A stretch of 64,000 nucleotides of DNA from assembly GCA_036984305.1 (NCBI GenBank), contig BQWY01000001.1:2997501-3061500 (forward strand), written 5' to 3'. Under the pieces are notes generated by a model. It saw nothing but the letters and a program-made list of their open reading frames with translations. It had not been told where the DNA came from and ran no database searches. Below, in pieces: positions 46,565 to 61,621 of this stretch. The position numbers and the translations under genes are program-made. Position 1 is the stretch's first letter, and each line of letters opens with the position of its first letter. The DNA comes from Nitrospira sp. GTDB taxonomy: Bacteria; Nitrospirota; Nitrospiria; Nitrospirales; Nitrospiraceae.

Positions 46565-47338
46565 TCAAAACGTGAAGGACACACCCGCCAGCGGCCCCTG
46601 GTACTCAACATCCCAGATGAACCCGGACGTCTTCTCGTAATCGACCTTGATATACCTATATCCAGCGAAGATCGAGATATGTTCCGTAAAGGCGTAGCCC
46701 AGCCCACCCAGCACATCTACTAGGATGTCCGAACCTCCCCCTCCCACGACAGCCGTCCCGCTTGCGTAGAGCCCTCTCCAAATTTTCACACGTGCTCTCA
46801 GCCCGCCCAACCCGTCCACCCATCCGGCCGTCGAGGAGGACGTCCGTGCCGGAAGCAATCCAGCTTGGAAGTTCAGGTCGGTATTGACGTAATACCCACG
46901 GACGCCAGCCACAAGATCGACCCAGATATGTTCGTCTTCTGCGATCCGAAAGACACCCGCAACGGTGGCCATCAGCGTCTCGGAACCCAGCCGTGTGCCG
47001 CTGAAGACCGGACCTGGCGTCGTGCCGTCGGCCGAGATCTTGGTCCACATGACATCGGTCAGGATACCGAACCGTCCCTTACGCAGTTCGGCCGCACCCA
47101 TGAATGCAAGGTCGAGGTTGTCCACAATGTCGTGAAACGACGCATCCACGTTTGAACTGGGCAGCGGCGGCAACGTCCTGACCGTCCCCTTCAATCCGCT
47201 GGCGTAGAGATAGGGGGAAAAGGAAAAGGACCAGCGATCGGCCCGAGATCCGTGGCTCTCCTCCGCCCACCCCAGCGATACTCCACAACTGGCGAGACAC
47301 AACGCTCCCATTACGCCCCGAATCAGTCGTCGCCACAT
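46565..47338 (-). CDS. Outer-membrane beta-barrel protein
   Basis: 257 residues from ATG 47338 (AAAGGA 8 nt upstream), with a signal peptide ending SLGWAEE. Strands include WSFSFSPYLYASGLKGTV, RFGILTDVMWTKIS, IWVDLVAGVRGYYV and ISIFAGYRYIKVDYE. It ends GPLAGVSFTF, with the terminal Phe expected for BamA clients. The pattern is that of a small 8-10 strand barrel; a central glycine run (VVGGGGSDI) forms a turn. Confidence 0.72.
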   Translation of the reverse strand: MWRRLIRGVMGALCLASCGVSLGWAEESHGSRADRWSFSFSPYLYASGLKGTVRTLPPLPSSNVDASFHDIVDNLDLAFMGAAELRKGRFGILTDVMWTKISADGTTPGPVFSGTRLGSETLMATVAGVFRIAEDEHIWVDLVAGVRGYYVNTDLNFQAGLLPARTSSSTAGWVDGLGGLRARVKIWRGLYASGTAVVGGGGSDILVDVLGGLGYAFTEHISIFAGYRYIKVDYEKTSGFIWDVEYQGPLAGVSFTF

Positions 47339-47489
47339 ACGAACATCCTTTCGTTGTTGTGTCCAAGCCACCTGCCTCCTGATTGCATCATTTTTCTATA
47401 TCGTCGTCGGTCCCTAGTCGGCAGCATGGCGAGCCGATCGGGGCGATTCCTGCTGGCCGCTACATCCAGATACCACTCGTACTCTTTCC

Positions 47490-49544: not shown

Positions 49545-50657
49545 TTAGTGCCCGTGCGCCTGCAGGTCTTCTTCGACAAAGCGCAGCACCGCCTCGAGGA
49601 GCGCCTCGCGCGGGTAGGCATTCTGAGTCACGAACAACGCACCGATGGTCGTGTGTGTACGGGCAATCGGGAGGGCGACGGCCCAGTGGTCAGCGTTCAG
49701 GTACCCTAACAGCGTACTGCCTGGCACCACTGCGTCATAAAAGATCACCTGACTGTCGTTGCGCGCATCGACACGGCTAAGCTTGTCATAGCTGGACTCG
49801 AGGATCCATGAGATGCGTTCCGGCTGTGGCAAAGCCACGAGTGAATAGTAGCGGATCTCGCGGGGAAGCGGATTCTCGGCGAGCCATGCCTTCCTGATCG
49901 CCGGCCGCAGGCTCTCTACTCCTTTACCATCACCGGACTCGCAATTGGCCTTGGGAAAGTGCCTCACGAGATCTGCCTGATATTGCTCGGCATCATTGGC
50001 CAACGGTGAGCCGCCCACCGCCCCGGCAGCCGATACCACAGCCGCCACGCGACCCCGTAACTCTGGATACGCCACCAGCGCCTCCAGGATGTCCGGCGCT
50101 CCTTTCGAGTAACCGATCAACACGAGACGGGGATCGCCTGGTTTTTGCGGCATGTCCATAATTGCATTTCGAATCTGGCGCGCGTTCGTTTGTGTGCCGG
50201 ATAGCGCGTCCACATGGATCATTAGTTGGTCATATCCATATTTCCGTACATGCCCGGCTGAAGTACCGGGCGCCGCCAGCCACGGTTCAAAGCAGTCATA
50301 GCCGATCCCTGGAACTACAGCCGCAATCAGACTCCCGCTCGATGCCCCCAACACCACCTCACCGCCGGCGCCCACCGCTTCGCCTGCAAGCCGCGTCAGC
50401 GCCACTTCGCAGGGTAGGTAGTCGGGTATTTCGTTCCGGCGCGCCTCTAGCACGGCGCAGTAGATCTCGCGAAAGCGCGCTCGTTTATCCTGAATGCCGA
50501 CCTGTCTGGTTGGGACCAGCACGAGCGGGGGGGTATCTTCCGAAAACGGCACAAGCGGCTTCGTGGCACACGCACCACACACAAGGCACGCCAGCAGCAT
50601 GTACGGGAGAAAGTCGATGGACCGTCTCGAGCGATCCCGCGGCAAATGATGCACCAT
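49545..50657 (-). CDS. Alpha/beta-hydrolase lipoprotein
   Basis: 370 residues from ATG 50657 (AAGGGAG 7 nt upstream). A lipoprotein signal with cysteines at 24 and 30 is followed by LVLVPT. The nucleophile elbow is VLIGYSKGAPD (S184), and a candidate catalytic His lies in LNADHWAVALP. SSGSLIAAVVPGIGYDCFEPWL resembles a lid or substrate region. Family unknown to me, but clearly a serine hydrolase exported to the envelope. Confidence 0.75.
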   Translation of the reverse strand: MVHHLPRDRSRRSIDFLPYMLLACLVCGACATKPLVPFSEDTPPLVLVPTRQVGIQDKRARFREIYCAVLEARRNEIPDYLPCEVALTRLAGEAVGAGGEVVLGASSGSLIAAVVPGIGYDCFEPWLAAPGTSAGHVRKYGYDQLMIHVDALSGTQTNARQIRNAIMDMPQKPGDPRLVLIGYSKGAPDILEALVAYPELRGRVAAVVSAAGAVGGSPLANDAEQYQADLVRHFPKANCESGDGKGVESLRPAIRKAWLAENPLPREIRYYSLVALPQPERISWILESSYDKLSRVDARNDSQVIFYDAVVPGSTLLGYLNADHWAVALPIARTHTTIGALFVTQNAYPREALLEAVLRFVEEDLQAHGH

Positions 50658-50773: not shown

Positions 50774-52768
50774 TCATGGATAGTATCTCCAATCAAACAC
50801 CACGCGCAGACCGCCGGTCCAAACCGTATCAAGCGATACCCCGGGCGCGCCCGCGGGCGTGACGACCGAAGCCGAAGTGGGAATATTGACGCCTGCAAAA
50901 ACCTGGAACAGGACCGCTGAGCTTTGGTTGCTCGAAAACGCCCGGAACGGCCGATATTCGACGACAGGCATTTCGAGATAGATCGACTTGTAGTCCACCA
51001 CCCGCGCATTGCCACCGGGGGTCGCACTTGGGGCTATCACACGATCTTCTCCAATAAGGCCATACACGGTCACACCGAGTTCTCGGCCGGCTACGAATTG
51101 AAAGCGCCCGATCGGTGTAGCCCAGCCGGTCTGCCATCCTAGCAAGCCTCCATTGCTCGCCGTGATCGCCATGTCTATGTATCGGTCGGGCGCAAGGAAG
51201 TATAGGGGCGCAAGCAACAACAGGTCGCCGGGGATCACGTAAAACGGCATCCGCAATCGAGTGGACAGCCCCACGCGCGCGGGGATGGCCGACGAGATAT
51301 TTCCTCCCTGCGTCGCGAGGGACGGATCGGCGATCGAATTCGAACTCGAAGAATCGCCACGGAGCCCAAATGCTAGGAAAATTAACCCATCTCCTGCGTC
51401 GCCGATCACGCCATCCAATCCCAAACCGAGCCGAACAGAGAGATCGACGGTACCCTTTACGCCACCACCTTGCGAAGGGGTGAACCCACCGGAGACATAT
51501 TGGCCGTCCACGGCTCCTGCGAGCCCGATGAAGGGTCCCATTTCGCTGCGATACCGAGGCAAGGCGCCAATCCCAGGTCCCAGACCAGGCACAGGCGTCA
51601 GAGCCAAGACTTCATATCCCATTGAGAGGGCTTCCGGTGTCACACGCAACCCTTCCGGCCGCAATGGGAAGGTACGAGTTTTACAAACATCGAGAACCCC
51701 GGGATGCATTGGAGCGGCTGGCGTGTACGGCATCTCGATGGGCCTTGAAACTCCCGTCGCCGTGTCGAGTACCTGGCCGAGGCTCAAGCGAGCAGCATGA
51801 GCCGCTCGCTCGGCATCCTCCTGACGCATGTGCGCGTCCCCCCTGAGTACCATCGACTCACTCTTCCCCACCCAAGGAAAGACCTCGATGCCGATTTGAT
51901 TGTAAATGTCATGTGTGCCTTTCCGTTGAGCCGAAACGCCCCACGATCCGGCCACATGACCGGCCGAAAATGCATCCTCCAAAAAGTGCAGCGCAAAGGC
52001 TTCATCAAACAGCATGGAAAACACCAGTGCCCGGTGCTCATCGGGAGTCAGAGTCTCTTTTGCCAGTCGAGTGGCCTTTTGTAGGGCCTCCAAGTGATAG
52101 GTCCCCCACACTCCAAGTGCATTGAGTTCGGACCCCGGAGTGAGAGTGAGCTGCGCATATTCCAGCGGGGAAATGTCAGGGCGAGGGCGCGCGAGCAGAA
52201 AGTGGGCCAGGTTGGCGTCGGCGCGAGTGGCGTATCGCGGATCCGCCCGTTGGAGATTCGTATCGCTTGTCCGCAGGGCATTGAGACGCTCCGCTCGCGC
52301 CCGCTCACTCTCCAGCCGACGGCGAAGATCTTTAATTGTAAGCTTGTCCTGGGAGATTTCCCCAGGAAGCGATTGGTCCGTAATGCGGGAAAGATCGACC
52401 TTCAGTTGCGCGGCGATGTGGGCCACCTTGAGAATCCAGTCTGCATTGAGCACCGTGTCGGACATCTCCTGGCTCGAGCACGAATGATCCCCACCAATGG
52501 CCGACAGCGCGGCCCAGTCGATACAGGTCGGCATGACCCCTTGATCCTTGTCGGCTCCCTGTTCACAAAGAAGGGGCTGGTGCCCCTGACGAGCCTCACT
52601 CCAGAAGCGATCGAATACCGACCTCAGTGCTGGGTCGAGGTGTTCCAGAGTCAGGATCGCAATGTCGCGATGTTCCGGATAATCCCATGCGAACACACGC
52701 CCATCCCCACTCCACCCGAGCAGCAGAGCAGTCACCACATAGGCACGGGCAACGCGCATGCGATTCAT
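50774..52768 (-). CDS. Zinc phospholipase C/P1-nuclease-like domain fused to a beta-barrel-like domain
   Basis: 664 residues from ATG 52768 (GGAGGT 9 nt upstream); signal peptide 1-27. The predicted mature N-terminus is Trp28, and H33 (WDYPEH), the D94-H95 pair, H261-x3-D265, H271 (HFLEDAFSAGH) and H286 (GTHDIYN) follow the zinc-ligand order of bacterial phospholipase C and S1/P1 nuclease. The usual glutamate after the last histidine is an Asn here. From about residue 400 the protein turns into amphipathic strands (VDLSVRLGLGLDGV, ARVGLSTRLRMPFYVI, GRFQFVAGRELGVTVYGLI, SIYLEMPVVEYRPF) and ends in an aromatic-rich VFDWRYYP. An enzyme domain tied to an outer-membrane barrel is inferred. Confidence 0.72.
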   Translation of the reverse strand: MNRMRVARAYVVTALLLGWSGDGRVFAWDYPEHRDIAILTLEHLDPALRSVFDRFWSEARQGHQPLLCEQGADKDQGVMPTCIDWAALSAIGGDHSCSSQEMSDTVLNADWILKVAHIAAQLKVDLSRITDQSLPGEISQDKLTIKDLRRRLESERARAERLNALRTSDTNLQRADPRYATRADANLAHFLLARPRPDISPLEYAQLTLTPGSELNALGVWGTYHLEALQKATRLAKETLTPDEHRALVFSMLFDEAFALHFLEDAFSAGHVAGSWGVSAQRKGTHDIYNQIGIEVFPWVGKSESMVLRGDAHMRQEDAERAAHAARLSLGQVLDTATGVSRPIEMPYTPAAPMHPGVLDVCKTRTFPLRPEGLRVTPEALSMGYEVLALTPVPGLGPGIGALPRYRSEMGPFIGLAGAVDGQYVSGGFTPSQGGGVKGTVDLSVRLGLGLDGVIGDAGDGLIFLAFGLRGDSSSSNSIADPSLATQGGNISSAIPARVGLSTRLRMPFYVIPGDLLLLAPLYFLAPDRYIDMAITASNGGLLGWQTGWATPIGRFQFVAGRELGVTVYGLIGEDRVIAPSATPGGNARVVDYKSIYLEMPVVEYRPFRAFSSNQSSAVLFQVFAGVNIPTSASVVTPAGAPGVSLDTVWTGGLRVVFDWRYYP

Positions 52769-55473: not shown

Positions 55474-56472
55474 CTACTTCGATGGGAACAGCGCCACCAT
55501 GCGCTCGATGACCCAGAACGAGGACACGGAGCCAATGCAGTAGGCGGCCAATCGAGGGACCCACAGTGGTGCGGGACCCACCACGCGATGGAACATCCAG
55601 GCCGCTCCGAGCACGGTCGCCACAAATCCCAGTTGCCCGATTTCCACACCGATGTTGAAGAACAGTAATGCCAGCGGGATGTCGGTCTGGGGCAATCCCA
55701 CTTCAGCCAGGGCGCCGGCAAACCCGAATCCGTGAAGCAGCCCGAATATGAAAGCCACGATCCAGGGATATCGAGCCATCACGTCGAGCTGCGCATTGTT
55801 CTGGCGCGCGAGCTCCGACGCAACAAAGACGATGCTCAGCGCGATCACGGCCTCGACGGGAGCCTGAGGCACGTACATAAACCCCAGTGTCGATAATCCC
55901 AGCGTGATACTGTGCGCAACGGTGAAGGCCGTGATGGTTTTCACAAGCTGCCACATGTCGGGCACGAGCAGCACTAGCCCAAGCACGAACAGCAGATGAT
56001 CGATCCCGAACAGAATATGTTCGACGCCGAGCGTGAGATAGCCCCAGGTGGGAGCAGTCCCAGAACCGATCCGAAAAGAGGTGTCACTGGGACGCAGGAT
56101 CTCCGACATCACCGTGCCGCTACTCCAGTTGATTCGCACCAACACATCGACCATCGTCGCATCCAGGCCCTCAATCCTGATCTCCGCACCCTGCAACAGG
56201 CCGGTATCGCAATCAATCGCCCAACGGGAGACCTGGGCCGCATTGGCCAGACGCACGAGGGGTGTTGATACCGGTCGACAGTGCTCCGAAAAGACGGGGC
56301 GAAGCGCCAAGACACGATCACCACGAGCCGGGATTTTCCATAAGACGTCGAACCGAGTCGGCTCAACTTGGGTCAATTGAAGCAGACCCGGTCGTACTTC
56401 ATGAGCAAGTGCAACTCCCTGCCCCCAGGCCGACCAGACAAGGAGGAGCAGGCCAGCAAGGCGCACGCTCAT
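55474..56472 (-). CDS. HupE/UreJ-family membrane protein
   Basis: 332 residues: a signal peptide ending ALAHEV, a beta-rich periplasmic domain (40-140), then six or so membrane helices. The family signature is present: EHILFGIDHLLFVLGLVLL, FTVAHSITLGLSTL and GLLHGFGFAGALAEVGLP with conserved histidines, which suits divalent metal (nickel/cobalt) transport. The ATG overlaps the stop of the upstream parvulin gene by 4 bp, so the two are translationally coupled. Confidence 0.87.
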   Translation of the reverse strand: MSVRLAGLLLLVWSAWGQGVALAHEVRPGLLQLTQVEPTRFDVLWKIPARGDRVLALRPVFSEHCRPVSTPLVRLANAAQVSRWAIDCDTGLLQGAEIRIEGLDATMVDVLVRINWSSGTVMSEILRPSDTSFRIGSGTAPTWGYLTLGVEHILFGIDHLLFVLGLVLLVPDMWQLVKTITAFTVAHSITLGLSTLGFMYVPQAPVEAVIALSIVFVASELARQNNAQLDVMARYPWIVAFIFGLLHGFGFAGALAEVGLPQTDIPLALLFFNIGVEIGQLGFVATVLGAAWMFHRVVGPAPLWVPRLAAYCIGSVSSFWVIERMVALFPSK

Positions 56473-57356
56473 CTGGCCGCCTCCGCGAGGGACCGGCCAC
56501 GTGCCAGACTCTCCAGGGCCGTCTGGTCGATCACGATGTCATACCGCGCCCTGAGTCGTTCATAAAAGTCCTCGGCGGCTTCCTCACGCTTGGCCTGTTC
56601 GTAGTCGCGCAGAACAGCATGTTGTACGGAGGCGAGCGTCGGCACGAGCCCGGGGCGACGGTCCTTGATATACACCAGGTGCAACCCGTACCCGGATCGT
56701 ACTGGTCCTTGCCAGCCGCCGACCGGCAGCTGTACGACCTGGCGTGCGAAGTCATCGCCGAACACACGAGCGACATCTTCTACGCTCTGTTCTGGGTAGT
56801 CATACACCAACGTCAAGAGGCGATCACCCAACGCCTGGCCTGCGTTTGCAGACGCCCCTCGGGCCGTCAGTGACTCCAACGCCTCGCGAGCCATACCTGC
56901 CGCTTTCGCGCCGTGACGGTCGACGTTGAAGAAGACCTGCGAAAACTGGAGCCTCACCGGTTCACGGTAACGCTCTCGATGCTCGCGAAAATAACGCTGA
57001 AGCTCGTCCACAGTCGGCTCAGTACCGGCCATGAGGTCCTCAGACAGGAATTTCAGCTTCTGCATCAATCGGCGGCGGACCACCGTATCGTCCTTGTCCA
57101 GCCCCATGGCGAGCGCCTCCCGATACAGAATCTCCTCGCGCACCCGGTCCTCGATAGCTCCGCGTAATTCATCTGCAGTGGGAGGTCGTTGCCAGGTGCG
57201 TTGCCACAGAGTTCGGAGATGGCCGATATCCGCGGCAGTGAGTTCAATCCGCAGTCCGTTGTGAACCGCAGTGTCGTCGAGCCATGTGTTTAGACCGAAA
57301 ATGACGAGACCCAAGAGCGCAAAATGGAGCAGCGGTTCCCTTATCACTCTACGCAT
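56469..57356 (-). CDS. Parvulin-type peptidyl-prolyl isomerase (membrane-anchored)
   Basis: 295 residues from ATG 57356 (the frame is open further upstream, but the anchor starts here). An N-terminal helix (EPLLHFALLGLVIFGLNTWL) anchors it to the inner membrane. A SurA/PpiD-like helical region (ELRGAIEDRVREEILYREALAMG, EPTVDELQRYFREHRERY) precedes a parvulin domain (VRLQFSQVFFN ... GPVRSGYGLHLVYIKDRRPG). It overlaps the HupE start (ATGA), a pairing known elsewhere, and probably helps fold or insert an envelope metalloprotein. Confidence 0.85.
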   Translation of the reverse strand: MRRVIREPLLHFALLGLVIFGLNTWLDDTAVHNGLRIELTAADIGHLRTLWQRTWQRPPTADELRGAIEDRVREEILYREALAMGLDKDDTVVRRRLMQKLKFLSEDLMAGTEPTVDELQRYFREHRERYREPVRLQFSQVFFNVDRHGAKAAGMAREALESLTARGASANAGQALGDRLLTLVYDYPEQSVEDVARVFGDDFARQVVQLPVGGWQGPVRSGYGLHLVYIKDRRPGLVPTLASVQHAVLRDYEQAKREEAAEDFYERLRARYDIVIDQTALESLARGRSLAEAAR

Positions 57357-57502
57357 AACGTGATCGCTTAGTACCCTGCCTCCAACCGTCACCGTCTCTG
57401 AAATGTTCCCCTTTGCGACGGAGGACTCTCCCACTACGGCGTAGACCAAATCGTAGAAGCATGGGCACGCTGAGGCACATTGCCGCCAACGGCGCACGAG
57501 GC

Positions 57503-58924
57503 CTACTCAACCCGTTTCACCACCGGCGGCAGCCAATGACCGGTCAAAATCTTCGAGCCGGGCATGTAGAGACGCATCGTCAACCCCAACTTCCCTGACT
57601 TGGCCGACGGCAACCAGTTCGCCTCCTTGCCCTTGCCCGGAGATCCTGGCTGGATGTGGATATCGAGTGATCCATCTGGGTTAAATTGGAGAGGATCGCG
57701 ATCGCCGATCGCATATCGCTCGATCGGATTCGGCACGGGAAACCCATCGGCGTCATACATGGTCAGCGACCAGAACGCATCGACGGGCGGAAGCTGGTCG
57801 TTGGCGAAATGCAGGACATACCGCTGCCCTCCCACCATGGGCTTACCGTCCGCATCATGGACGTTCATAGGATACACGGCCTCTTCCGCCGGATTGGCGC
57901 CGAGACCGACCATGGCGACGACGGCCCGTTGAAGATATTCATTGCCGTACACGCCCATGACCGTAGTCTGGATGTTCCATCCGTTGCTGGTCTTACGTGG
58001 ATGGTTCGCCTCCGTCTGCATCAGATGCAAGGCGTGCTGGATTCCATGCGCCAAGGCTTCTTGAATGTCCGGTGTCAGGCGATCGAAATCGAAATCTCTC
58101 CCCGGCTCCAACCCGATACGCTGCAATCGCAATCGAATCGACCCATCGGTTGCGTGCGGCGGATGCTGCTTCAGGAGCTCCGCGGCATAGGTGAAGTACC
58201 GCTTGGCCGACATCTTCTTGACTTGGATCAATGGCGGCGTCTTCATATCGACCTGTGGATCGACGTGTGCCTTAACCCCCTGCGGTGACGTGCCCCACTC
58301 AGAGAGAGGCGTCGCCTTGTACCCCTCTTGAACCTTATGCACATTTTCATAGTCGTTGGGCCCGTTGGTTTGCGTCCGGCCGATCACCCAGACATAGCGT
58401 GTGGGTGACGGGATGCGGGTCACACCGGGCGGCAGCTCCCCACTCCATCCCGGCCCCGTGACCGCAAAATGGGCAGCCTTGGTACCGGACGTACGCTTGC
58501 CTGGGACGGCAATCACATCCGTCCACATGTCGAGCATCGGGAGCATGTAATATCGTCCCTGCGTATCCGGCGCCGACACGATCACGGGCTCTTTGCTGAG
58601 ATCAAGCCAGACGATGGAATACAGTGTATCGAAGTTAGGGCGCACGACCTCTTTGAAATCGCCGGGCGGGAACGTACGCATGTGGCTGAATTGATTCATC
58701 GGGCCGAAACCTGGATGCGCCCCGGACTCTACGTTGATCGACATCCGTCGCGTGACATCCATCAGTACCAAGGGGTAGGTGTACACGTACGCCTCGGTGG
58801 CAATCTGACGCGCCTGCTCTCGCGAGATGTCCGTCGCGTGGGCGGACGGACCGCCCGGCACCAGTGCCATCGAGAGATACCCCGCCATCATGAATTTCAA
58901 CACAGTGGATGCTGTTCCCTTCAT
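57503..58924 (-). CDS. DUF1254/DUF1214 domain protein
   Basis: 473 residues from ATG 58924 with a near-perfect AGGAGGTGAAG ribosome site. The signal peptide ends PSAHATD. The DUF1254 half starts IATEAYVYTYPLVLMDVTRR and includes NFDTLYSIVWLDLS; the DUF1214 half carries FWSLTMYDADGFPVPNPIERYAIGDRD and ends HWLPPVVKRVE. The family is exported and sometimes linked to aromatic or polysaccharide degradation, with no proven reaction. A broken relative lies at 48870-49125. Confidence 0.87.
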   Translation of the reverse strand: MKGTASTVLKFMMAGYLSMALVPGGPSAHATDISREQARQIATEAYVYTYPLVLMDVTRRMSINVESGAHPGFGPMNQFSHMRTFPPGDFKEVVRPNFDTLYSIVWLDLSKEPVIVSAPDTQGRYYMLPMLDMWTDVIAVPGKRTSGTKAAHFAVTGPGWSGELPPGVTRIPSPTRYVWVIGRTQTNGPNDYENVHKVQEGYKATPLSEWGTSPQGVKAHVDPQVDMKTPPLIQVKKMSAKRYFTYAAELLKQHPPHATDGSIRLRLQRIGLEPGRDFDFDRLTPDIQEALAHGIQHALHLMQTEANHPRKTSNGWNIQTTVMGVYGNEYLQRAVVAMVGLGANPAEEAVYPMNVHDADGKPMVGGQRYVLHFANDQLPPVDAFWSLTMYDADGFPVPNPIERYAIGDRDPLQFNPDGSLDIHIQPGSPGKGKEANWLPSAKSGKLGLTMRLYMPGSKILTGHWLPPVVKRVE

Positions 58925-59334
58925 CTTCACCTCCTGAACGTTTCCCGGCCGGGGCGCCCGCACCGCTAAATCTGGCCCCCACATTGCGTGCCAGACCGCC
59001 ATGTGCAGTGTCGCCACAATAGACAAGGATTCGAGAAAAGCGGCAGGGCGTTACGGAGCAACACACACGTTGGTCGCTGTTGCATAAGTCGACCTGTATG
59101 ACGACACCGTACGTAGTACAGCGTTGGTCACCACAACGATTGGTGGACGGCACTAGCAGGAGATAGAGTCACCGCCTCCCCCTCGGCCCCTCGCATTGGC
59201 GTGCGCAGATCCCATGACTTGCTCTGGTATCGCTGGACGGCCATTTTAAACATCCTGCGGGCTCTTTTATGTTGGTCCGTGAGTCGTCACGGGACCACTT
59301 GTCAGGCCCCTCAATATCTTCTCTCAACAGCGTG
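58925..59334. other. Intergenic region with a degenerate repeat
   Basis: 410 bp without a gene. On the minus strand from about 59258 it reads GCAGGATGTTTAAAATGGCC and continues GTCCAGCG, which resembles the end of the 122-bp repeat family (AGGCTGCTGAAAA...). The rest of the unit is too degenerate to define. Confidence 0.35.
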
Positions 59335-61278
59335 TTAGGGCGTATACCAAACCGGTGACGTATACGCACGCTCTTGGATGACCATTCTGGTGCCGGGGTT
59401 CGGTTTCACCCCGAATCGTTTCGCATCGTAGGCGGTCCAGCGCGGCGTGGGAATTTCCAGGACGCGCGCATAGTAAAAGGCGCGCAACGCCGGATTGAAC
59501 TCCGGGTCTTTCCACACCGCGATCAACTCAGGATCGCCGATGGTGTTGGTCCAGGTGGAATTGGCCACGTCCACCGTATCCCCAACCGCTGGCACCTTGC
59601 CGCTCGCGTCGGGCTTTCGCCTGTCGGCATCCCCCCACACCACGTCGTACACCTTTTCGTGGGCTTCACCCTTGTCATCGAGCCACCCTTTTACGATCTG
59701 GATCCGATCCAGGTTCGCCCCGATCGGGTCCTTGAGGGCCGCCACGAGGAACGTCGCCGACTTGCCCTGCGGTGCGGCGGTCAACTCTCCACCCATCGGG
59801 ACGCCCTTGCCATACCCGATGGCGGCCGGCAGACGACTGAGGGCATCCTTCGCCTCAAAGTTCCAGCCGCCAAAGAAGCGCACGGCCATGCGCGGGCCGG
59901 TCGTGGCGTACGTCTCCCTGCGTTCCATCGCGTCCCAGAGTGCCTCGCGCGTGTTCCCGGTCGCCCATACAGCCGCATACCCTGAGGCGCCAACCTCCCA
60001 GTCCATGACCTTGACGCCGGTCTTGGGATTGTCGAAGAAGGCCTTCTTCATGCGTTCCGGGCTCGGCTCCTGCGGCGCGGTTTTGCCGAAGAAGTTGTCC
60101 TCTTCCATGGCCGCCAGACCGGTATGCGCGTCACTGCTGCCGATCAAGCCAAACTGATAGGGGTTCGTTCCAATCGTCTGCGCCAGCTTCAGACCGTTCT
60201 TATACGCCGAGCGGGCGTACTCGAATTCGAGCATGTCGTTGGTCTTCGCCACGCTGCCGTCGAGGTTGCCCTTGTCCCAGATTTCAAAGTCGGCGAACTC
60301 GTCGTTCGGCGAGAGCACGGGGTGAGCCTCACCGGTTCCCTTGGTCTGCGTGACTTCATACAGTCGCTCCCGCTTGACTCGCTCATCCGCATACGCCTTG
60401 TCGACCTTCTTGCCGAAGGTCTCGACCGTGGGGAACATGAGACCGTTGCTGAGATTGCCGTTGTGGGCAATCGCCAGGACGTTGCCGCCGGTCTTGGCTT
60501 CGTAGGCCGCCATCCATTTCCACAGGTGCACAGGGTCATCGCTGCCCATCGGGGGATACACGGTAAAGGGTTCGACAAGGCCGGCCTTGTCTCCATTGTC
60601 ACGAAAGATCACGTTGCGATGCAGGTTGTTCCCACCCGTGTTGGAAGTCCATTCGAATCCGATAAACGCGGTAAACCGGCCCGGCTCGTTGTACGTCTCC
60701 GCCGCCTTGATGGTCTCCCGCCACGCGCCGCGATAACCGCGGGTGCCCGGAAAATACATCAGCTTTTCTGGAAACGTGCCATGCGAAAAGGCCACGATGA
60801 TCTCGAGTGCCGCCTCCGCCCCTTTTCCGGATTGAATCATGTCGTACCATTTGCGTCCCGTGGGATCAGCGAGGAGTTCGGGGTTGCCGGCGAACAGGTC
60901 TGGAAAGAATCCCATGTTGTCCGAATGGTCTGCGACGACGAGAAAATCGAGGGGTCGCGAGAGCTTGACTCGCTGGCCGGTATTGGACGTGACTTCCTCC
61001 CCCCGCGCAAAGCGATAGGCATCCCTTGGGGCGAGTCTGGCACCAAATGCCCCGGCGTCCATCGAAAACGAGGTGTGCAGATGGGTGTCGCCGAAGAATG
61101 GCCTCGTCGGGAAGTTTCGCCCCGCATAGGGTGAGTAGGTGGGCTTCGTCGGATGGACCTTCTGGAGGGTCGCCTTGTCGGCTGTTCCGATATCGCTCTG
61201 CCCATCGGCGTACGCTCCCGGGCTCCAAACGCCAAGGGACAACAGGGCGGCGACGAGGGCTAGATGTATGGCTTTCAT
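59335..61278 (-). CDS. DUF3604 domain protein (PHP-like metallohydrolase fold)
   Basis: 647 residues from ATG 61278 (GGAGGCC just upstream), with a signal peptide ending GAYADG. DUF3604 hallmarks are FFGDTHLHTSFSMDAG, LDFLVVADHSDNMGFF, FIGFEWTS, NVLAIAHNGNLSNG and GLIGSSDAHTGLA. The His/Asp residues in these places match a PHP-type metal centre, so a periplasmic metal-dependent hydrolase (phosphoesterase) is likely. Members are usually about 600-650 residues, so it is complete. No operon partner is obvious. Confidence 0.86.
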   Translation of the reverse strand: MKAIHLALVAALLSLGVWSPGAYADGQSDIGTADKATLQKVHPTKPTYSPYAGRNFPTRPFFGDTHLHTSFSMDAGAFGARLAPRDAYRFARGEEVTSNTGQRVKLSRPLDFLVVADHSDNMGFFPDLFAGNPELLADPTGRKWYDMIQSGKGAEAALEIIVAFSHGTFPEKLMYFPGTRGYRGAWRETIKAAETYNEPGRFTAFIGFEWTSNTGGNNLHRNVIFRDNGDKAGLVEPFTVYPPMGSDDPVHLWKWMAAYEAKTGGNVLAIAHNGNLSNGLMFPTVETFGKKVDKAYADERVKRERLYEVTQTKGTGEAHPVLSPNDEFADFEIWDKGNLDGSVAKTNDMLEFEYARSAYKNGLKLAQTIGTNPYQFGLIGSSDAHTGLAAMEEDNFFGKTAPQEPSPERMKKAFFDNPKTGVKVMDWEVGASGYAAVWATGNTREALWDAMERRETYATTGPRMAVRFFGGWNFEAKDALSRLPAAIGYGKGVPMGGELTAAPQGKSATFLVAALKDPIGANLDRIQIVKGWLDDKGEAHEKVYDVVWGDADRRKPDASGKVPAVGDTVDVANSTWTNTIGDPELIAVWKDPEFNPALRAFYYARVLEIPTPRWTAYDAKRFGVKPNPGTRMVIQERAYTSPVWYTP

Positions 61279-61621
61279 GATGGCCTCCGTTGCACGTTTC
61301 TGGCGAACGAGCGCCTGGACAAGTCGGACCATGAATGATGCATGTAGGTCAGGAGCCAAGCAAGCCTTTACCGGTCACCCGGTGCCTAAAATTTCCGGAC
61401 GCTACACGTCCACCTGCCCAGACGGCCAACGCGTCGTCGTATGTCCGCCCATAGACGACCCTCGCAGCGTCGTCCTATCTCCCGACCGACGCCGACATGA
61501 CGATTCTGCATGAAGCCCGATACCGACCTCGGCATGGGACCGGAACGACTGTCCCGAAGTTCACTCGCGGTATTTCGCTCGTACGAAACGCCGGTGAGGG
61601 ACCATGCAGTCCGGATGCGCC
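61279..61621. other. Intergenic region
   Basis: 343 bp; nothing recognisable as a gene or RNA. It should hold the promoter of the DUF3604 gene. Confidence 0.4.

Follow-up and report, generated by a model that had tools for sequence, protein, structure and literature searches.

Results

In the present study, we analysed a window of 64,000 nucleotides from a Nitrospira sp. contig and followed up a 664-codon open frame on its minus strand, with the ATG at 52768 and the stop at 50774. A GGAGG lies 9 nt before the ATG, and the plus strand of the same segment is interrupted by several stops. A preliminary description had placed one exported protein here without stating the strand, and this was confirmed; the features are collected in Table 1. 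The host genome is 4.35 Mb. Horizontal gain of the gene was considered from base composition and is unsupported, the GC content being 0.591 against 0.596 for the window.

Table 1. Features of the 664-aa protein gene, in window coordinates
Feature	Position	Strand	Basis
Whole gene, 664 aa	50774..52768	-	Open frame; 60-63% identical homologues in four Nitrospiraceae genomes
Signal peptide, residues 1-27 (cleavage between ...GRVFA and WDY)	52688..52768	-	Sequence; conserved A-W or A-Y junction
N-terminal domain, residues 28 to about 375, putative PLC/P1-type zinc phosphoesterase	51644..52687	-	Ligand pattern, cross-phylum conservation
W28-D-Y-P-E-H33, mature N-terminal Trp with His at +5 (P1 Trp1/His6 pattern)	52670..52687	-	W/Y-x-x-x-E-H, from Nitrospira to Bacteroidota
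G93-D94-H95, D94 candidate catalytic Asp (P1 Asp45)	52484..52492	-	All invariant in A2; G93-D94 in A3
H189 (HF motif), candidate for P1 His60	52202..52204	-	Invariant in A2 and A3
H225, extra invariant His of the family	52094..52096	-	Invariant in A2 and A3
H261-x3-D265-x5-H271, candidate core zinc motif (HFLEDAFSAGH)	51956..51988	-	Invariant in A2 and A3; spacing as in S1-P1 members L035-L037
H286-x3-N290, candidate late ligand His; Asn replaces last Asp/Glu ligand	51899..51913	-	H invariant in A3; N in A2
G310-D311 motif	51836..51841	-	Invariant in A2 and A3
Conserved linker, residues 392-409 (PVPGLGPGIGALPRYRSE)	51542..51595	-	Nearly invariant in alignment A5
C-terminal domain, residues about 410-664, putative outer-membrane beta-barrel, roughly 8-10 strands	50777..51541	-	Periodicity; classifier
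Putative last strand and beta-signal, residues 651-664 (TGGLRVVFDWRYYP)	50777..50818	-	Sequence; conserved motif

The gene stands among minus-strand genes, with a HAD hydrolase upstream. A conserved operon was rejected, since the neighbours differ in the homologous loci (L002-L004 and L006). At 49545-50657 on the minus strand, 116 bp downstream of the gene, lies a gene for a putative alpha/beta hydrolase lipoprotein that has a GYSKG motif and is without a Pfam match; it is a possible partner that would process diacylglycerol, and the pairing is absent from the homologous loci. Elsewhere on the minus strand, 46565-47371 encodes a 268-aa barrel-like protein (0.67/0.85 in the classifier described below) with no Pfam match and no homologues in 40 relatives, and 55474-61359 holds a run of HupE/UreJ_2, PPIC-type rotamase, DUF1254/DUF1214 and DUF3604 genes.

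The nearest named relative with the gene is Nitrospira sp. LK70 (Nitrospiraceae), whose homologue is 61% identical across residues 18-664. Altogether, four Nitrospiraceae genomes have homologues of 60-63% identity, three of them full-length and one N-truncated by a contig end. When 396 genomes of the phylum were searched by profile, six matched, one of them (G215) only remotely; beyond LK70, the search gave two more full-length copies, one copy truncated at a contig end, and a broken one in G132. That genome is of another family and is fragmented, with 8% contamination, and its copy lies broken on two contig ends (L006, L008) with an internal TGA. The gene is absent from the 60 nearest relatives in a single-sequence search, which is blind to remote copies. 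Full-length homologues of about 60% identity are present in separate genomes, and both halves have therefore been inherited together, as one real gene.

Neither Pfam nor NCBIfam gave a match to the 664-aa protein, even at E = 10, and nothing relevant was found in the PDB, whether by sequence or by profile. Outside the close group, tblastn of plasmid records gave homologues of the N-terminal half in Hymenobacter (pairwise E 4e-13) and Parabacteroides (8e-11), both annotated 'hypothetical protein'. A Rhizobium protein, P0005, was reached through the Hymenobacter homologue, and profile searches within the phylum gave G215 and G392. These remote homologues in other Nitrospirota and in Bacteroidota are 20-30% identical, significant over the N-terminal half only, and those checked are likewise without a family match. 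No relatives were found in the viral contigs and phage records that were scanned. The Parabacteroides homologue (L012:3404-5245) lies 18 bp downstream of a DUF5686 gene, with which it possibly forms one operon. In a Cupriavidus metallidurans megaplasmid, a stretch (L013:5001-5159) with about 49% identity to residues 612-663 ends in VFDWRYYF; its frame is full of stops and its E value is 0.3, so that it may be the decayed end of a related betaproteobacterial barrel gene or a chance match.

Taken by sequence, this is an unnamed family of patchy distribution whose layout recurs beyond the host, in Bacteroidota and other Nitrospirota. The preliminary description knew of no named family with such a layout; none is found in Pfam, NCBIfam or the literature searched, although other genes share the layout.

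Discussion

The N-terminal half is best compared with the PLC/P1 superfamily (Pfam clan CL0368, with PF00882, Zn_dep_PLPC, and PF02265, S1-P1 nuclease). In S1/P1, the mature N-terminal Trp with three Asp and five His holds three zinc ions (PMC5201275), and this nine-residue site (1 Trp, 3 Asp, 5 His) extends through the superfamily (PMC4144908). In the 664-aa protein eight of the nine positions are filled (Trp, two Asp, five His) and the ninth is Asn290, the assignment being made by pattern. The shared elements are a signal cleaved before Trp, Trp-x4-His, Asp, His, H-x3-D-x5-H and a further His. We take the P1 ligands to be Trp1, His6, Asp45, His60, His116, Asp120, His126, His149 and Asp153, which by order and spacing presumably correspond to W28, H33, D94, H189, H261, D265, H271, H286 and N290. 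Of these, the preliminary description had listed W28, H33, D94 (with H95), H261-x3-D265, H271 and H286 as ordered zinc ligands; all are present in that order, and it had overlooked N290 and H189, the likely counterpart of P1 His60.

Conservation across phyla follows the same pattern. Two alignments of eight rows each were used (A2, and A3 with Nitrospirota, Bacteroidota and Rhizobium sequences), and D94, H189-F190, H225, H261, D265, H271, H286 and G310-D311 are invariant in both. A3 has 21 invariant columns, which include all six aligned ligand positions (D94, H189, H261, D265, H271, H286); His and Asp take eight of the 21, more than chance would give against a background of 10.8% (hypergeometric P about 7e-4, with the relatedness of the rows ignored). 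In all homologues with an available N-terminus, except the divergent Rhizobium protein, the A-W or A-Y junction is kept, and cleavage exposes a Trp or Tyr five residues ahead of His (W/Y-x-x-x-E-H).

The PLC/P1 hit that the preliminary description expected for this half did not reach significance by family HMM or by profile comparison. The PF00882 and PF02265 HMMs match nothing over the gathering score in the 664-aa protein or in the host genome (G000), and hhalign of the N-terminal half against PF00882 and S1-P1 members was not significant with these shallow alignments, so that the superfamily assignment rests on the residue pattern. The protein also departs from superfamily members in its Asn at the ninth position, in a long stretch inserted between D94 and H189, in the extra invariant H225 and the G-D motif, and in the putative C-terminal barrel. 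On this pattern, we consider that the N-terminal half is probably a PLC/P1-type zinc enzyme; the superfamily would be a known one, with a family and an architecture that appear new and unnamed.

Within the superfamily, it was necessary to consider which branch is nearest. Nitrospirota PF00882 proteins were rejected as closest relatives; they have H-x3-D-x3-H against H-x3-D-x5-H here, and these proteins (L015-L034) appear to form a separate branch of the zinc PLC family. The 664-aa protein has the W1-x4-H6 spacing of S1/P1, and three Nitrospirota S1-P1 members (L035-L037) share both W-x4-H and H-x3-D-x5-H with the 664-aa protein, which would suit the same fusion carrying an S1/P1-type nuclease or 3'-nucleotidase that scavenges phosphate from nucleic acids at the outer membrane. 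We regard this as unlikely: there is no PF02265 match, the last Asp ligand is Asn, and hhalign against the three S1-P1 members aligned just the signal and W-H stretch, below significance. Aurass et al (cited in PMC10149971) are said to have described in 2013 a zinc metallophospholipase C family, distinct from the Bacillus type, of Legionella PlcA, PlcB and PlcC and Pseudomonas enzymes. P0005 (DHYLSDLFSSGH), the relative from Rhizobium, may be of this kind. These secreted enzymes are not known to carry a barrel.

The Asn at the ninth position also bears on catalysis. Replacement of one Asp/Glu ligand position by Asn could mean a degenerate, non-catalytic relative whose incomplete zinc site has a structural or binding role, and S1 nuclease loses its activity when a different ligand, Asp65, is changed from D to N (PMC5201275). 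Asn290 is, however, found in all eight rows of A2, across phyla, and in G392 as well, and every other ligand is invariant. This suggests that the active site has been maintained, with one ligand peculiar to the family, and we hold the degenerate reading to be very unlikely.

The amphipathic strands that had been noted in the C-terminal half were seen as alternating hydrophobic strands, about 8-10 by periodicity, with the count uncertain. The chain ends in TGGLRVVF followed by D-W-R-Y-Y-P, a BAM-type beta-signal with a last strand rich in Trp and Tyr, although its final residue is Pro after Tyr and not the terminal aromatic of the beta-signal; S/T-x-G-L-R-[LV]-x-[LF]-D-W-R is kept in all homologues that reach the C-terminus. 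For a statistical measure, we used a logistic classifier of strand and helix hydrophobic periodicity over the last 200 residues, trained to tell 28 PF13505 barrels from relatives apart from 178 control ORFs of those loci; its AUC in cross-validation was 0.96. The 664-aa protein scored 0.91, a value that 1.7% of controls reached, in a classifier that does not separate barrels from soluble beta-sandwiches specifically. Since some high-scoring controls resemble outer-membrane proteins (signal peptide, terminal aromatic), this false-positive rate is probably overstated. The Nitrospira homologues scored 0.85-0.96, Hymenobacter 0.98, G215 0.84, Parabacteroides 0.75 and G392 0.55, against 0.001-0.37 for residues 60-260 of the same proteins, and family copies still scored 0.78-0.93 when placed in the control set. 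Thus, the C-terminal half is probably an outer-membrane barrel, with statistical support.

Known PLCs can carry a C-terminal beta-sandwich, and hhalign of the C-terminal half against PF13505 members was not significant with these shallow alignments. The same region could then be a secreted beta-sandwich for lipid or carbohydrate binding, and the protein a soluble or loosely attached exoenzyme. We find this quite unlikely, given a length of about 285 aa, which is long for a C2-like sandwich, the barrel-type periodicity and C-terminal beta-signal in the Nitrospira proteins, and the barrel-like C-terminal halves of most remote homologues. Among the 396 genomes of the phylum, the Nitrospira-group C-terminal domain has no other relatives above noise. 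Neither fold was confirmed by AF2, as the pLDDT was near 30 both for the whole protein as a single sequence (31.8, with helices drawn in the N-terminal half at meaningless confidence) and for the C-terminal half with one homologue only (29), too few homologues having been supplied. The combination of a PLC/P1-type enzyme with a barrel, as first described, is partly supported, by sequence evidence for both halves and by conservation over the full length.

We propose, with a probability of roughly 0.6, that the protein is a Sec-exported zinc phosphoesterase anchored in the outer membrane by its own barrel. Signal cleavage would expose Trp28 at the mature N-terminus, and W28, H33, D94, H189, H261, D265, H271, H286 and probably N290 would bind a cluster of three zinc ions within a helical domain of the PLC/P1 type, which spans residues 28 to about 375. 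The BAM machinery would fold roughly the last 250 residues into a small barrel, by which the enzyme is held at the outer membrane. In the simplest topology, an even number of strands with the C-terminus inside would leave the catalytic domain facing the periplasm, and there it may hydrolyse the phosphodiester head groups of phospholipids that are misplaced or belong to the inner leaflet. We favour phospholipid over nucleic acid as the substrate because of the membrane anchor, with low confidence. Of these steps, the gene, its signal peptide, the ligand pattern and the union of the two halves are observed, the barrel has statistical backing, and zinc binding, fold, substrate and topology are inferred.

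The uncertain strand count (about 8-10) leaves some room for an odd number, or for autotransporter-like export, by which the catalytic domain would be displayed on the cell surface and act on outside lipids or nucleic acids. This appears rather improbable to us: a folded zinc domain N-terminal to a small barrel is most simply periplasmic, an argument that has also been put forward, and tested, for PlpD (PMC11116518). The phospholipase domain of PlpD was shown to be periplasmic and to act on endogenous lipids, and loss of PlpD raises membrane lipids (PMC11116518). In PlpD and the PL-Omp85 proteins, as in the anchored zinc phosphoesterase proposed here, a single chain carries a phospholipase domain on the N-terminal side of an outer-membrane barrel. 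PlpD differs in being a patatin Ser-Asp hydrolase with POTRA and a 16-strand Omp85 barrel, and by Pfam no sequence relation was seen, as neither patatin, POTRA nor Omp85 barrel was matched in the 664-aa protein. OMPLA (PldA) is also an outer-membrane enzyme that may act on phospholipids; its active site is on the barrel itself, whereas the 664-aa protein would use a separate zinc domain.

Conclusion

In the open-access literature, we found no description of a PLC/P1-type domain fused to an outer-membrane barrel, which is weak evidence of novelty. More tentatively, the homologues could represent an unnamed class of outer-membrane enzymes of this PLC/P1-type and barrel layout, widespread in Nitrospirota and Bacteroidota, that would be a zinc-based counterpart of PlpD and OMPLA in turning over the lipids of the outer membrane and would have a trinuclear zinc site modified by Asn. 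The enzymes known to reside in or on a barrel of the outer membrane are few. If the reading is true, a barrel-tethered zinc phosphodiesterase would bring another chemistry to the turnover of outer-membrane lipids or to the scavenging of phosphate, and proteins of Bacteroidota and Nitrospirota that are now called hypothetical would gain a family name from the layout they share.
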